Positions 15,564 through 19,963 of a stretch of DNA of 41,813 nucleotides are shown in pieces. The translations under genes were made by a program, and so were the position numbers. The notes under the pieces were generated by a model that saw only the letters and a program-made list of their open reading frames with translations, searched no databases and was not told where the DNA came from. How positions within the stretch are numbered: position 1 is the first letter of the stretch; each line of letters starts with the position of its first letter. Source of the DNA: Natrialba chahannaoensis JCM 10990. Its GTDB lineage: Archaea > Halobacteriota > Halobacteria > Halobacteriales > Natrialbaceae. The stretch spans positions 1-41,813 of the forward strand of contig NZ_AOIN01000045.1 of the NCBI RefSeq assembly GCF_000337135.1. Direction: 5' to 3'.

Positions 15564-16940
15564 TCAGCCGAGCACAGCAGTCGAGAATAGCATCAACAAC
15601 ACCGCACAGACGATTGCACCGGAGAGCGTCGCGAGGAAGTTAACACCTTGATTGCCGAGCAGCGTCCCCTCGAGTGTCGCGCCGAGGAGACTGTCGACGG
15701 TCATCCCGACGAAGCCGGCCGCGACGATAATCGCTGCGCCGACGGCCCCGACAGCCGGAAAGAGCAGGTAGCTCAGCCCGCCGACGATGGCCGCACCGGT
15801 GAGGCCAGCCACCTCACCCTGCCAGGTGATGCCGCCGTCTGTTCCCGGCTCGACCGGCTCCAGCGTGGTGATCAACCGCGGCGTTTCGAAGACGCTTCCG
15901 ACCTCACTCGAGAGGGTGTCGCTCATCGCGGTCGCGACGGAGCCAGCGAAGGCGAACAGAAAGAGGTCGGCGGTGACCGGCAACAGCCCGGCCAAACTCG
16001 CGGCGTAGCCAAGGACGGCCGCGATGGCGACGGCGGCGTTGCCGAGGACGTTGCCGCTGCCGCGAGCACCGTTGTTGTCCTCGGCGACGCCGAGTTCCTC
16101 CTTACGGCCGTAGCGGAACTTCGTCGAGAGGCCGCCGATGCCGAAGAAGGCGATGAGGACGGCGAACCAGGCGTAGCCGCCGAGGACGATGGTGAGCAGC
16201 CCGAGGAGGACGCCGGTGATCATCCCCGCGATGGAGGCTGTCTCGAGTGCGTACGAAACGTATCCCAGCAAGGCAGTGATCGTGAGTGCGAGTACGATGT
16301 CGACGGTTCCGAGGCCGGGATCGAGTTCGGCGAGCAGCCAGAGTAGGAAGCCGGCAGAGAGCATGACGACCGGATCGTCGTAGATCAGGAAGACATCGCG
16401 CAAGAGCGCAGCGAGGAGGGCACCGCTGGCTGCGAGAAAGAGTACGCTCGGTAGGACGGCTTCGATGGTTGCAGTGGTCGTGGTGGTCGTAGCGGCCGCA
16501 ACGCTTCCCGGTTCGCCCGACAGCGCAAGCAGCGTCACGACCTGGCCGAGGACTGCGGCCACGGTTGCGACGAGGCAGAACCCGGCGACTGCGAGCACGT
16601 CGTTGTCAGAGCGTGCACGGACGAGGCGTTCTGCGAGGTTGCCGTAGCCGACCAGGAGGACGGTACCGACGAAGATGGCAGTCGACATCGAAGTATTGAA
16701 CGCCACGAGTCCGAGGGCGACAGCTGCAAGAACGAACGTGATGAGGCCGTATAGACGGCGGTCCTCGTAGTCTCCGGGGTACGCGACCAGCTCGAAGAGC
16801 GGGCCGTCCGTGACGAGGAACGCGCCGAGCAAGACCACCGCTGCGATGGCGGTCGCGACCTCGATCCCAGCGAGCGGCACGGCGAGCACCAGCGTACTCA
16901 GCGCCGCGAAGACGCTGGCTCGCCGAACGGGTGATGTCAC
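15564..16940 (-). CDS. DUF92 family membrane protein (CTP-dependent polyprenol/phytol kinase-like)
   Basis: 458 residues with roughly 12 membrane helices. The C-terminal half carries the DUF92/TIGR00297 pattern: a GGLSTKFRYGRKEELGVAEDNNGARGSGNVLGNA loop, SVATAMSDTLSSEVGSVF, then TDGGITWQGEVAGLTGA and VDSLLGATLEG. In plants the family member VTE6 is a phytyl-phosphate kinase, related to the CTP-using dolichol kinases. A kinase acting on a polyprenol or isoprenyl phosphate in the membrane is therefore likely here (inference). The start is GTG at 16940, with a weak TATA-like TTCAAGTAA on the minus strand about 29 bases upstream. The gene is divergent from a cis-prenyltransferase gene 163 bases away, which supports a role in polyprenyl/dolichyl phosphate metabolism. 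The extra N-terminal helices (first 200 residues) are longer than in the short bacterial relatives. Confidence 0.88.
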   Translation of the reverse strand: MTSPVRRASVFAALSTLVLAVPLAGIEVATAIAAVVLLGAFLVTDGPLFELVAYPGDYEDRRLYGLITFVLAAVALGLVAFNTSMSTAIFVGTVLLVGYGNLAERLVRARSDNDVLAVAGFCLVATVAAVLGQVVTLLALSGEPGSVAAATTTTTTATIEAVLPSVLFLAASGALLAALLRDVFLIYDDPVVMLSAGFLLWLLAELDPGLGTVDIVLALTITALLGYVSYALETASIAGMITGVLLGLLTIVLGGYAWFAVLIAFFGIGGLSTKFRYGRKEELGVAEDNNGARGSGNVLGNAAVAIAAVLGYAASLAGLLPVTADLFLFAFAGSVATAMSDTLSSEVGSVFETPRLITTLEPVEPGTDGGITWQGEVAGLTGAAIVGGLSYLLFPAVGAVGAAIIVAAGFVGMTVDSLLGATLEGTLLGNQGVNFLATLSGAIVCAVLLMLFSTAVLG

Positions 16941-17075
16941 GATATCGGTGTCTTTCTGTGGCGGTTACTTGAAGGTTCCCGAACACGCCGCCACCTCGTT
17001 TCACGGGTGACAGGTCCTGTTCACGCCGATCCCTATAGTGCTTCTGTGCAGACGCTGAGAACGACCCGTAACCTG

Positions 17076-17080
17076 TATAC
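17076..17080 (+). promoter_or_regulatory. TATA box of the cis-prenyltransferase-like gene
   Basis: TGTATACTATC contains TATAC at 17076-17080, about 26 bases before the GTG at 17104; this fits a leaderless transcript and supports the GTG start. Confidence 0.55.
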
Positions 17081-17103
17081 TATCGGACGCGGAAGCCGAT
17101 TCT

Positions 17104-17709
17104 GTGGGACTGTACGAACGCTACCTGGCTCGCCGAATCAGCCGGGACGACGCCGCCCTCCCTGAGCACATTGCACTCGTCATCACCGAACGGGACCTGC
17201 TTGAACGCGGTGCCTACGAGACACTCATCGAGTTCTTCGACTGGGCGTTCGAATACGCCGAGCGCGTCACCGTCTACGTCAGCGTCCTCGACCTCGCCGC
17301 GGTGCCCGCACTCCGACGCGAACTCGAATCGATCAACGCACCCCGTGATGTTGCCGTCCGCGGGCCGGACGATCGGGATCCCGCGGACGCGCCGATCCAG
17401 ATCGGAATCGGCCTCGGCGGAAAACACGAGTTTACGAGCGCGGTCCGAACACTTGCAGAAAGCGTCGATGAGGGAACACTTGAGCCGGATGCCATCGACG
17501 ACGACCACGTCGAGGATCATCTGGTCTTCTCCTCGGAGCCCGACCTGGTGATCAAAACCGGCGCGGAGCGCCTCTCGGACTTTATGATCTGGCAGTCCGT
17601 CTACTCGGAACTGTACTTTACCGATGTCAACTGGCGCGATTTCCGCAAACGAGACTTCCTCCGTGCTGTCAGAGAGTACTGCAATCGCTCACGCCGATTC
17701 GGTCGGTGA
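17104..17709 (+). CDS. Cis-prenyltransferase homologue lacking the catalytic DGN motif (putative non-catalytic subunit)
   Basis: 201 residues, shorter than the usual 240-330. The C-terminal region is unmistakably of the UppS/cis-prenyltransferase family: DLVIKTGAERLSDFMIWQ, then SVYSELYFTDVNWRDFRKRDFLRAVREY, matching the RTGGE-RLSNFLLWQ-YSELYFTD-W-DF signature. At the N-terminus, where active enzymes have HIAxIMDGNGRWA, this protein has HIALVITERDLLERGAYETL. The catalytic Asp and the phosphate-binding loop are absent, and the first Arg of RTGGE is Lys. It resembles the situation of the NgBR/Nus1 subunits that pair with a catalytic partner. A full-length cis-prenyltransferase is encoded 700 bases downstream on the other strand. 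Role as partner subunit is inference; a different or lost activity is possible. Confidence 0.85.
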   Translation: MGLYERYLARRISRDDAALPEHIALVITERDLLERGAYETLIEFFDWAFEYAERVTVYVSVLDLAAVPALRRELESINAPRDVAVRGPDDRDPADAPIQIGIGLGGKHEFTSAVRTLAESVDEGTLEPDAIDDDHVEDHLVFSSEPDLVIKTGAERLSDFMIWQSVYSELYFTDVNWRDFRKRDFLRAVREYCNRSRRFGR

Positions 17710-17756
17710 CGCCGTTTGTGTCGGTAACGCGTGCTCGTCGCGTCCGTTCACACTAA

Positions 17757-17905
17757 CATCTTATCGTCTCTGCTTTCACTCCTCGTTCGCTCTCACTTCT
17801 TCACTCGCTCTTCGCTTGCTATCGTCCCATTTTCGTTCACGCTTTGCTTTTGCTTTCGTTTCCGTTTCTGTTCTCGTTTCTGTTCTCGTTCCCACTCTCA
17901 CAATT
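17757..17905. repeat. Pyrimidine-rich tract with TCTCGTTTC-type hexamer repeats
   Basis: About 150 bases between the prenyltransferase-like gene and the DUF7344 gene are overwhelmingly C/T on the plus strand. They include GTTTCCGTTTCTGTTCTCGT and another GTTTCTGTTCTCGTTCCCAC, an imperfect 6-base periodicity, and many TTCGCTCT-like words. T-runs (CATTTTCG, GCTTTTGC) here could end transcription of the upstream gene. On the minus strand it is a polypurine GAAACGAGAACAG tract downstream of the DUF7344 gene. No gene is supported in it. Confidence 0.6.
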
Positions 17906-17915
17906 CCACCCTGAC

Positions 17916-18287
17916 CTACGCAGTCGACTCGCTTCCGTCTGTAACGGACACCAGCAGTGATTCCGTCTGTGGGTGTTCGAACGCGACCACCGGATCGTCC
18001 ATCCGGACGATCCCCGATCGCACATCGTACTCGAGTATCCGATGATCGTCGAGTTTCGGAAGAACGTTGTGGATGAGTTCTGTTTTGACCGTCTCGCGGG
18101 GGTCGTCATCCCACTGACTAGTGATTTCGGTGAGCCAGTCCACCGAAACGGGTCCTTCACACGCGGAAAGGGCGTGGAGTGTGACGCGCAGCCGGCCGTT
18201 CGCGAGAAGCGCGTACGCATCGTCGAGTGAGACGTCCGTCAGCCGTACGAACCGTTCGACGTCGACGGGAGCAGTGTGAGACGACAT
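17916..18287 (-). CDS. DUF7344 winged-helix domain protein
   Basis: 123 residues. The pattern LDDAYALLANGRLRVTLHAL, then SVDWLTEITSQWDDDPRETVKTELIHNVLPKLDDHRILEYDVRSGIVRM, is that of the haloarchaeal DUF7344 domain, a small winged-helix fold usually found in putative transcription regulators. Nothing else is fused to it. It lies between two cis-prenyltransferase genes and has its own strong AT-rich promoter. It may control the flanking genes, but haloarchaea carry many such proteins and no target is proven. Confidence 0.82.
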   Translation of the reverse strand: MSSHTAPVDVERFVRLTDVSLDDAYALLANGRLRVTLHALSACEGPVSVDWLTEITSQWDDDPRETVKTELIHNVLPKLDDHRILEYDVRSGIVRMDDPVVAFEHPQTESLLVSVTDGSESTA

Positions 18288-18309
18288 TCAGCTACTATTG
18301 TCATACTAA

Positions 18310-18320
18310 TTAATAAAATA
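18310..18320 (-). promoter_or_regulatory. TATA box of the DUF7344 gene
   Basis: The minus strand reads TATTTTATTAATTAG just upstream of the ATG at 18287, with the TATTTTATT core centred about 29 bases away. This 18296-18335 stretch is the most AT-rich in the neighbourhood. Confidence 0.6.
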
Positions 18321-18413
18321 CTTCTGGTAATATAGCTAACACGTCTGTGGCGGTAACTGGCCGCATATAGGGCGTGTCGGCCATCCGACGACTGGGAGGA
18401 AACAGCTGTCGAC

Positions 18414-19391
18414 TCAGTCGGCCACCCGGCTACTCGAGTCCAGTCCGTCGTCGCTTGTCGTGTTTTCACCGGAGTCAGTAACGGCGGCCGTCTCCCGGTC
18501 GATGTCCGCAGGTCGTTCGCCAACCGGGAGTGAATCACGGAAGCGATTGACGATCGCCTGTGCGTCGGTCAGTTCGGGCTCGCTGACCGCCCCGAGCAGG
18601 GCAATCGCGCGCCGAGCGCGCGTGCGTCGCCAGGACTCCTTGCGGTGTTCGTAGGTTCGAATCCCGCGCAGGAAGTCGGCTTTCGAGAACTCGGGCCAGT
18701 AGGGCGTACAGAAGAACACGGCCGCCTCGTTACCGTTCGCGTGCCAGGGCAAGAAATTCGATGTCCGTTCCTCGCCGCCGGGACGAATAATCAGATCGAC
18801 ATCTCGAACCGGCTGGTCGTATAGCCGTTGTTCGATCGTCTCGACATCGATCTTGTCGGGGTCGATTTCGTCCGCGTCGACATCTCTTGCGACGCCGCGA
18901 GCGGCTTCGAGCAGCCGCGACCGACCACCATAGGCGAGTGCGATGTTGAGTACGAACTGATCGTACTCCTGTGTGCGGCGCTCGGCATATGCGACGGCGT
19001 CCCGGACGTGTTCAGGGAGCAGGTCGATTTCGCCGATCGCCTGGATACAGACCTCGTTGTCGTGCACCCGGTCGGCGTCGGCGAACTCGGTCAACTTCTC
19101 ACAGAGCAGTTCGTACAGCGCCTCGCGCTGGTCTTCAGGGCGATTGAAGTTCTCCGTGGAAAAGGTGTACAGCGTCAACTCCTCGACGCCGATATCCTGG
19201 CACCACTCGAGTACCCGTTCGGTCGTTTCGGCACCGGCGCGGTGGCCTTCGTGGGGGTCGCCGCCGTGCTGGCGGGCGTACCGGCGGTTGCCGTCCTGAA
19301 TCACGGCGACGTGGGTGGGTGCTCCGGCGATTTCACGGGAAAGCAACCGCTCGTACGCTGCATCGACGCGTCGACGAAACCACCGCTTCAT
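18414..19391 (-). CDS. uppS: Cis-prenyltransferase (undecaprenyl/polyprenyl diphosphate synthase family)
   Basis: 325 residues. It adds isopentenyl diphosphate units in cis to an allylic diphosphate to make the long polyprenyl chain used, in archaea, as dolichyl-phosphate glycan carrier. Visible motifs: HVAVIQDGNRRYA with catalytic Asp33; GHRAGAE at 49-55; LTLYTFSTENFNRP at 73-85; and RPGGEERTSNFLPWH with Arg203, Arg209 and Ser211 for diphosphate binding. After this block the usual YSELYFTD is replaced by GNEAAVFFCTPYWPEFSKADF. That segment is kept in the 17104 protein, so the two seem complementary. A polar C-terminal tail of about 50 residues follows. The ATG at 19391 gives the normal basic N-terminus (MKRWFRRRVD). 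Confidence 0.93.
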   Translation of the reverse strand: MKRWFRRRVDAAYERLLSREIAGAPTHVAVIQDGNRRYARQHGGDPHEGHRAGAETTERVLEWCQDIGVEELTLYTFSTENFNRPEDQREALYELLCEKLTEFADADRVHDNEVCIQAIGEIDLLPEHVRDAVAYAERRTQEYDQFVLNIALAYGGRSRLLEAARGVARDVDADEIDPDKIDVETIEQRLYDQPVRDVDLIIRPGGEERTSNFLPWHANGNEAAVFFCTPYWPEFSKADFLRGIRTYEHRKESWRRTRARRAIALLGAVSEPELTDAQAIVNRFRDSLPVGERPADIDRETAAVTDSGENTTSDDGLDSSSRVAD

Positions 19392-19558
19392 CAGTCAATG
19401 AGACGGCATCGGGGACTATGTGTCTTGTGTGGTATTCTCCGACAGTGAATGTATGCGGTAGTATAACACATTCAGTCAGTGAACGGACGACTCGTTTCGG
19501 TTGAGTTCGCCCCGTCGAATCGTGACGGCTATCTGTCCGCACGTTCTCGACTCGCCCA

Positions 19559-19963
19559 ATGAGTAACGCGATCGACGACGATCTGTACCAGCGGACCAGA
19601 GCGCTCCTCGAGCCGGGCGAAATCCAACTCAACGGCGCGATTATCCACACCGAGTACGACGGGAGCGAGGATGTCCAGATGATGCAGGCGACGATCGACG
19701 CCGGCGACATTATTGCGGGGCACTCGGGGTACGACCCGCAGGATTGCTACGTCTATTCGGGCAACGACGACACGGACTTCTCCTCGAATCAGCACCAGGG
19801 GCTCACGCTCGAGGACGAGGAGTTTGTCTGGGAGTGCCAGCAACTGCTTCGAAACGGCAGTTTCGACATCGTCATCTACTACGAGGGAAGCGCCGACCAC
19901 GAGGCTATCCTTGCGGATATTGAGGAGCTTGGCTTCGACGTGACCGGCGTCAAGGGCGACTAA
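19559..19963 (+). CDS. DUF5778 family protein
   Basis: 134 residues, acidic, soluble. Starts MSNAIDDDLYQRTRALLEPGEIQLNGAIIHTEY and ends FDIVIYYEGSADHEAILADIEELGFDVTGVKGD. The compact alternating layout and the full-length similarity I recall point to the haloarchaeal DUF5778 family. No catalytic motif is evident; the two Cys (CYVY, WECQQ) are notable in a Cys-poor proteome. Function unknown. A possible TATA-like GGCTATCTG lies about 28 bases upstream. Confidence 0.8.
   Translation: MSNAIDDDLYQRTRALLEPGEIQLNGAIIHTEYDGSEDVQMMQATIDAGDIIAGHSGYDPQDCYVYSGNDDTDFSSNQHQGLTLEDEEFVWECQQLLRNGSFDIVIYYEGSADHEAILADIEELGFDVTGVKGD

Follow-up and report, generated by a model that had tools for sequence, protein, structure and literature searches.

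Does a haloarchaeon that encodes only two proteins of the cis-prenyltransferase family PF01255 use them as separate enzymes, or as two parts of a single one? This question is raised by a locus (15564-19963) of Natrialba chahannaoensis JCM 10990 on contig NZ_AOIN01000045.1, analysed as a stretch of 41,813 nt (the window). The gene order, with strands in brackets, is DUF92 (-), P (+), DUF7344 (-), E (-), and DUF5778 (+), in which P and E denote the only two PF01255 proteins of the 4.3-Mb genome. An earlier note on this DNA, whose gene coordinates were borne out (Table 1), had proposed a pair of pseudo-enzyme and enzyme resembling eukaryotic DHDDS/NgBR and a heteromer of Methanosarcina mazei. This proposal was strongly supported by residue complementarity in a sequence census, by structure models, and by co-occurrence and synteny. 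Together with selection, these observations form the basis for our conclusion (probability approximately 0.85) that P and E constitute an obligate heteromeric cis-prenyltransferase (cis-PT) for synthesis of the glycosyl-carrier lipid, coupled to a putative DUF92 kinase that would act in the same lipid pathway.

The census comprised 111 P sequences (88 haloarchaeal and 23 others) and 135 E sequences from haloarchaea and 20 further families of the phylum, with both alignments mapped onto E. coli UppS numbering. In all 88 haloarchaeal P sequences, T-E-R-D replaces the E. coli residues D26-G27-N28-G29, while just 3 of the 23 non-haloarchaeal ones have Asp in the D26 column. None of the 111 P has residues corresponding to positions 71-77 of the E. 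coli enzyme (the SSENW/tunnel stretch). An [RK]xG motif was located no more than three residues from the C-terminus in 111/111 P, with P of the window ending in RFG. E showed a full catalytic set (D33-G34-N35-R36-R37, R203, R209, and S211). In the E alignments, DGNRR, STEN, RTGG, and R-S were invariant or nearly so, and the residues corresponding to E. coli R194, R200, and S202 were practically invariant. None of the 135 E has RxG at the corresponding column, and six of them have a chance RxG farther along the tail helix. Chance does not account for these features, as all 88 haloarchaeal P and almost all E possess them. E has DGN and the substrate-binding residues without a C-terminal RxG, as in the catalytic subunit of a heteromeric enzyme, and P lacks the catalytic Asp and has a C-terminal RxG, as in the partner subunit. 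A homodimeric UppS type, with DGN and RxG on one chain, was rejected, as neither P nor E has both.

The earlier note had described P as devoid of the DGN loop but with a conserved C-terminal SELYFTD block, and E as possessing catalytic Asp33 and diphosphate-binding Arg and Ser residues; all of these were seen (T28-E29-R30-D31 and S168-ELYFTD-D174 in P; D33, R203, R209, and S211 in E). P also has Glu in the Glu213 column in 111/111 sequences, and R200/S202-type residues are retained by the haloarchaeal proteins. R/K151, R156, and S158 are likewise kept in P. Where P has SELYFTD, E has A-N-G-N-E-A-A-V-F-F-C, which is two residues longer and, with few exceptions, conserved throughout the phylum. 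In this segment, Glu is conserved at E222 in at least 90% of the E sequences, so that loss of SELYFTD is not decisive; judged from the alignments, E222 is probably the retained counterpart of the SELYFTD Glu. Loss of SELYFTD as the key complementarity was therefore rejected in favour of RxG. The complementary losses claimed by the earlier note were confirmed as a split between the two proteins, but the features that diagnose it are DGN and tunnel versus RxG. The two stronger markers, the C-terminal RxG of P and its loss of the 71-77 stretch, were absent from that note.

The role predicted for RxG has a well-characterized counterpart. The C-terminus of NgBR, which carries RxG, crosses the subunit interface and forms part of the DHDDS active site; in its R290-L-G292 sequence, the backbone nitrogens of L291 and G292 hold phosphate at the isopentenyl diphosphate (IPP) site, and an R290H substitution lowers activity (PMC7573591). 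Sequence comparison showed that human NUS1 ends in RLGK and that DHDDS lacks an RxG motif. The human DHDDS/NgBR pair resembles E and P in that a catalytic subunit without RxG is combined with a partner that lacks DGN but has a C-terminal RxG, and an N-terminal (Y/W)ER helix is common to DHDDS and the archaeal proteins. In contrast to P, NgBR has an N-terminal membrane anchor, the human product is longer, and yeast Nus1 lacks the canonical RxG Arg. The homodimeric E. coli UppS shares its fold and active-site residues with E, but has DGN and RxG on one polypeptide, whereas in the archaeal pair they are divided over two.

Structure models were made of single chains of P and E, each folded separately, and both showed a cis-PT fold. 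The P model [predicted local distance difference test score (pLDDT) 87] had human DHDDS as its best VIA-align match (Z 16.4, root-mean-square deviation 2.9, 189 residues aligned), tied with other cis-PTs, and matched NUS1 with Z 14.7. The E model (pLDDT 85.6) matched E. coli UppS (Z 28.9, root-mean-square deviation 1.9, 224 aligned) and DHDDS (Z 28.0), and contains an extra helix pair at its C-terminus. With the Pfam Prenyltransf profile, E scored 227 bits over the whole domain, while the match to P (92.6 bits) was confined to residues 98-200.

The cis-PT family was found in 391/391 haloarchaeal genomes searched. According to a count made from the family table, approximately 377 of these encode exactly two members and a single draft encodes one; the remainder encode three or four. 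Across the phylum, P was present in 195 of 197 sampled genomes, and a P match was absent from two draft genomes of one family (G397 and G405, family f18). Co-occurrence of both subunits was found to be obligate in these two sets of genomes. A lack of co-occurrence, which the earlier note had set against its own proposal, was checked for and did not occur. In phylogenetic trees, P and E formed two separate, coherent groups that each span the phylum, which indicates that the split predates the haloarchaea and that the pair dates back to the origin of the phylum.

Synteny was analysed in 80 named haloarchaeal loci, which were the best matches to P and are biased towards the family of the window. 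Convergent P and E genes, separated by a median of 562 bases, occur in 77/80 loci; in 75/80, DUF92 and P form a divergent pair (median 152 bases). Among 20 other families, 10 have P and E close together in convergent orientation, 10 have a divergent DUF92-P pair, and 16 have one or both of these linkages. The DUF92 association suggested by the earlier note stood in so far as this linkage is real and phylum-wide. A few lineages retain DUF92-P with E located elsewhere. In one large haloarchaeal genus (g30; loci L177-L179 and L181-L185), the P-E and P-DUF92 linkages are both lost, with P and E kept elsewhere in the genome. The convergent orientation is unusual for partners, for which co-directional genes are the norm; across distant families, the two genes sometimes abut or overlap at their 3' ends (L161, L165).

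Both the heteromeric cis-PT and the linkage of DUF92 to uppS have precedent in the portions of the literature concerned (Emi 2019, via PMC8131916; Makarova 2015, PMC5898192). M. mazei has three cis-PTs, MM_0014, MM_0618, and MM_1083, and, according to Emi (2019) as cited in PMC8131916, a MM_0618/MM_1083 heteromer yields C45-50 products. In two Methanosarcina-like genomes (G500 and G480), a third cis-PT is present in addition to one E and one P each; in G500 it is a close homologue of MM_0014. By elimination, MM_0618 and MM_1083 are assigned to the E and P types. The M. mazei and haloarchaeal pairs come from the same phylum; the former makes C45-50 products, likely the glycosyl carrier, and the latter is predicted from sequence. 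In addition, P and E genes are usually linked, convergent, and located beside DUF92 in haloarchaea, whereas they are apart in the sampled Methanosarcina-like genomes. No paper on a heteromeric cis-PT of haloarchaea was found in the literature searched; as far as that literature shows, such an enzyme is new for this group. The pair is near-universal in the phylum.

We infer that P and E form a physical complex, in which E would bind the allylic diphosphate and IPP and elongate the chain by means of D33, R36/R37, R203/R209/S211, and an intact tunnel. P, predicted to lack both a substrate site and a tunnel, would dimerise with E via the usual cis-PT interface and insert its R198-F-G tail into the E active site. 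In this way, P would supply the RxG missing in E and take the role of the RxG that homodimeric enzymes obtain from their own twin. The product would be a long polyprenyl diphosphate, the precursor of a phosphodolichol-type glycosylation carrier. In the same pathway, DUF92, a putative membrane enzyme of the cytidylyltransferase/prenyl-kinase type, may phosphorylate a prenol or prenyl phosphate with cytidine triphosphate (CTP).

Alternatively, E might be active alone as a homodimer, with P as a separate regulator or chaperone, e.g., for chain length or membrane recruitment, that makes no contribution to the active site. Retention by E of nearly all catalytic residues, including the Glu equivalent, and the separation of P and E genes in some lineages are consistent with this explanation. 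We nevertheless consider it unlikely, given the distribution of RxG at the aligned position (0/135 E versus 111/111 P), co-occurrence of the two copies across 391 genomes, and the near-invariant C-terminus of P, which mere regulation would not need. The conserved R/K151, R156, S158, and SELYFTD of P might instead reflect two independent enzymes with different products, of which P is divergent but active. Loss of the catalytic Asp loop from every haloarchaeal P and of the tunnel-forming stretch from all 111 P makes this very improbable. Loss of catalytic residues would also be expected if P were a decaying pseudogene copy of E. P is, however, intact at all loci, ancient, and near-universal, and its ratio of nonsynonymous to synonymous substitution rates (dN/dS), estimated against close relatives, was 0.05-0.09, which is lower than for E and indicates strong purifying selection. 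Its distribution and dN/dS rule out a pseudogene for practical purposes.

Some observations weigh against an obligate P-E heteromer coupled to DUF92. In genus g30, as in several methanogen families, the P and E genes show no linkage. Genome G397 encodes DUF92 but not a single PF01255 protein, which indicates that the tie between DUF92 and the P-E pair is not strict. Homology of DUF92 and CarS was undetected by profile-profile comparison. Finally, with E222 and its other catalytic residues intact, E might show some activity in the absence of P, as DHDDS does as a homodimer.

The DUF92 protein scored 195 bits with the Pfam profile (gathering score 27.5) and 172 bits with TIGR00297, below the cut-off of 205.85, and its gene is single-copy in this genome and in 26 others. 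VTE6 belongs to the same family; compared with it, the archaeal protein has an additional membrane domain at the N-terminus. Makarova et al. (2015, PMC5898192), in the section concerned, described the DUF92-uppS linkage (arCOG02245) and two conserved metal-binding aspartates, and predicted a kinase step. These aspartates likely correspond to D341 and D416, which are at least 95% conserved over 33 sequences. While the linkage and the predicted kinase role are shared with the present locus, that passage does not recognise the linked uppS as a non-catalytic RxG subunit, nor its catalytic partner. The same section reports that, in Methanosarcina barkeri, DUF92 is fused to a Sec59-like domain at its N-terminus, to which residues 1-215 of the present DUF92 protein, its N-terminal membrane domain, may correspond. 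Most haloarchaeal N-terminal domains have a GN pair at a possible GD site, and this part of DUF92 could be a degenerate kinase domain joined to an intact one.

DUF92 might be, as the earlier note had proposed, the archaeal dolichol kinase, which converts dolichol to dolichyl phosphate; its substrate could otherwise be a short prenol primer or, like that of VTE6, a prenyl monophosphate. The dolichol kinase assignment, which concerns the DUF92 step only and is compatible with a P/E heteromer, is plausible, though we hold it at somewhat less than an even chance. It is favoured by the phylum-wide linkage to P, by the M. barkeri fusion and, at the Pfam threshold, by the absence from this genome of CTP_transf_1 (PF01148) proteins beyond CarS. 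However, a separate archaeal dolichol kinase (HVO_0053) is annotated, with overlapping distribution, and in the relevant passage of PMC5898192 DUF92 was thought unlikely to duplicate it with identical specificity. Moreover, the characterized relative VTE6 phosphorylates phytyl phosphate (PMC10849223).

Table 1. Genes and sequence features of the P-E locus in the window.
Feature	Position	Strand	Basis or remark
P, putative non-catalytic NgBR-like cis-prenyltransferase subunit, 201 aa, GTG start	17104..17709	+	PF01255 in C-terminal half only
T28-E29-R30-D31 of P, at place of catalytic D-G-N-G	17185..17196	+	88/88 haloarchaeal P
S168-ELYFTD-D174 block of P, E213-type Glu kept	17605..17625	+	Glu at E213 column in 111/111 P
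R198-F199-G200, RxG tail of P, predicted to enter E active site	17695..17703	+	[RK]xG census; NgBR analogy
E, putative catalytic cis-prenyltransferase subunit, 325 aa	18414..19391	-	PF01255 full domain
D33-G34-N35 catalytic loop of E	19287..19295	-	D in 133/133 E covering the column
N219-GNEAAVFFCT-T229 of E, SELYFTD replacement with two-residue insertion	18705..18737	-	Alignments across phylum
DUF92 (PF01940/TIGR00297-like) membrane protein and putative CTP-dependent prenyl kinase, in divergent orientation to P	15564..16940	-	Pfam
DUF7344 protein between P and E, judged outside the system	17916..18287	-	19/80 loci
DUF5778 protein, conserved neighbour divergent from E, not claimed as part	19559..19963	+	72/80 loci

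Of the other neighbours, the DUF7344 protein (40 bits with Pfam DUF7344) had been regarded by the earlier note as a regulator belonging to the locus. Its occurrence between P and E in only 19 of the 80 haloarchaeal loci did not bear this out, and it was rejected as part of the system. The DUF5778 gene occupies the same place and orientation in most of these loci.

A possible relation of the archaeal pair to the eukaryotic enzyme was addressed by profile searches. When the N-terminal half of P, a region not recognised by Pfam, was used as a profile against the PDB, human DHDDS (E-value 0.0002) and NUS1 (0.003) outranked all bacterial UppS entries. The whole-P profile matched NUS1 over its full length (2.7e-10), and bacterial enzymes scored higher. 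A split of P and NUS1 from all other sequences received support of 98/90, with a very long NUS1 branch, and a grouping of NUS1 with DHDDS was not rejected (approximately unbiased test, p-AU 0.086). Descent of P and NgBR/NUS1 from one ancestral non-catalytic, RxG-donating subunit, such that the eukaryotic two-part dolichol synthase was inherited from archaea and not invented independently, is a tentative and rather doubtful proposition. P and E nevertheless provide prokaryotic relatives with which the origin of the DHDDS/NgBR pair can be addressed.

Lombard (2016, PMC5088576) emphasizes that the final steps of archaeal dolichyl-phosphate synthesis are not known, and the tie between a single-copy family of putative membrane kinases (DUF92) and the predicted non-catalytic subunit bears on the end of this pathway. 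A heteromeric P-E enzyme leads to a clear prediction for RxG that is testable in the genetically tractable Haloferax. Genes annotated plainly as 'UppS' would then encode two different subunits, and all haloarchaea, along with nearly the whole phylum, would make their glycosyl-carrier lipid by a split enzyme.

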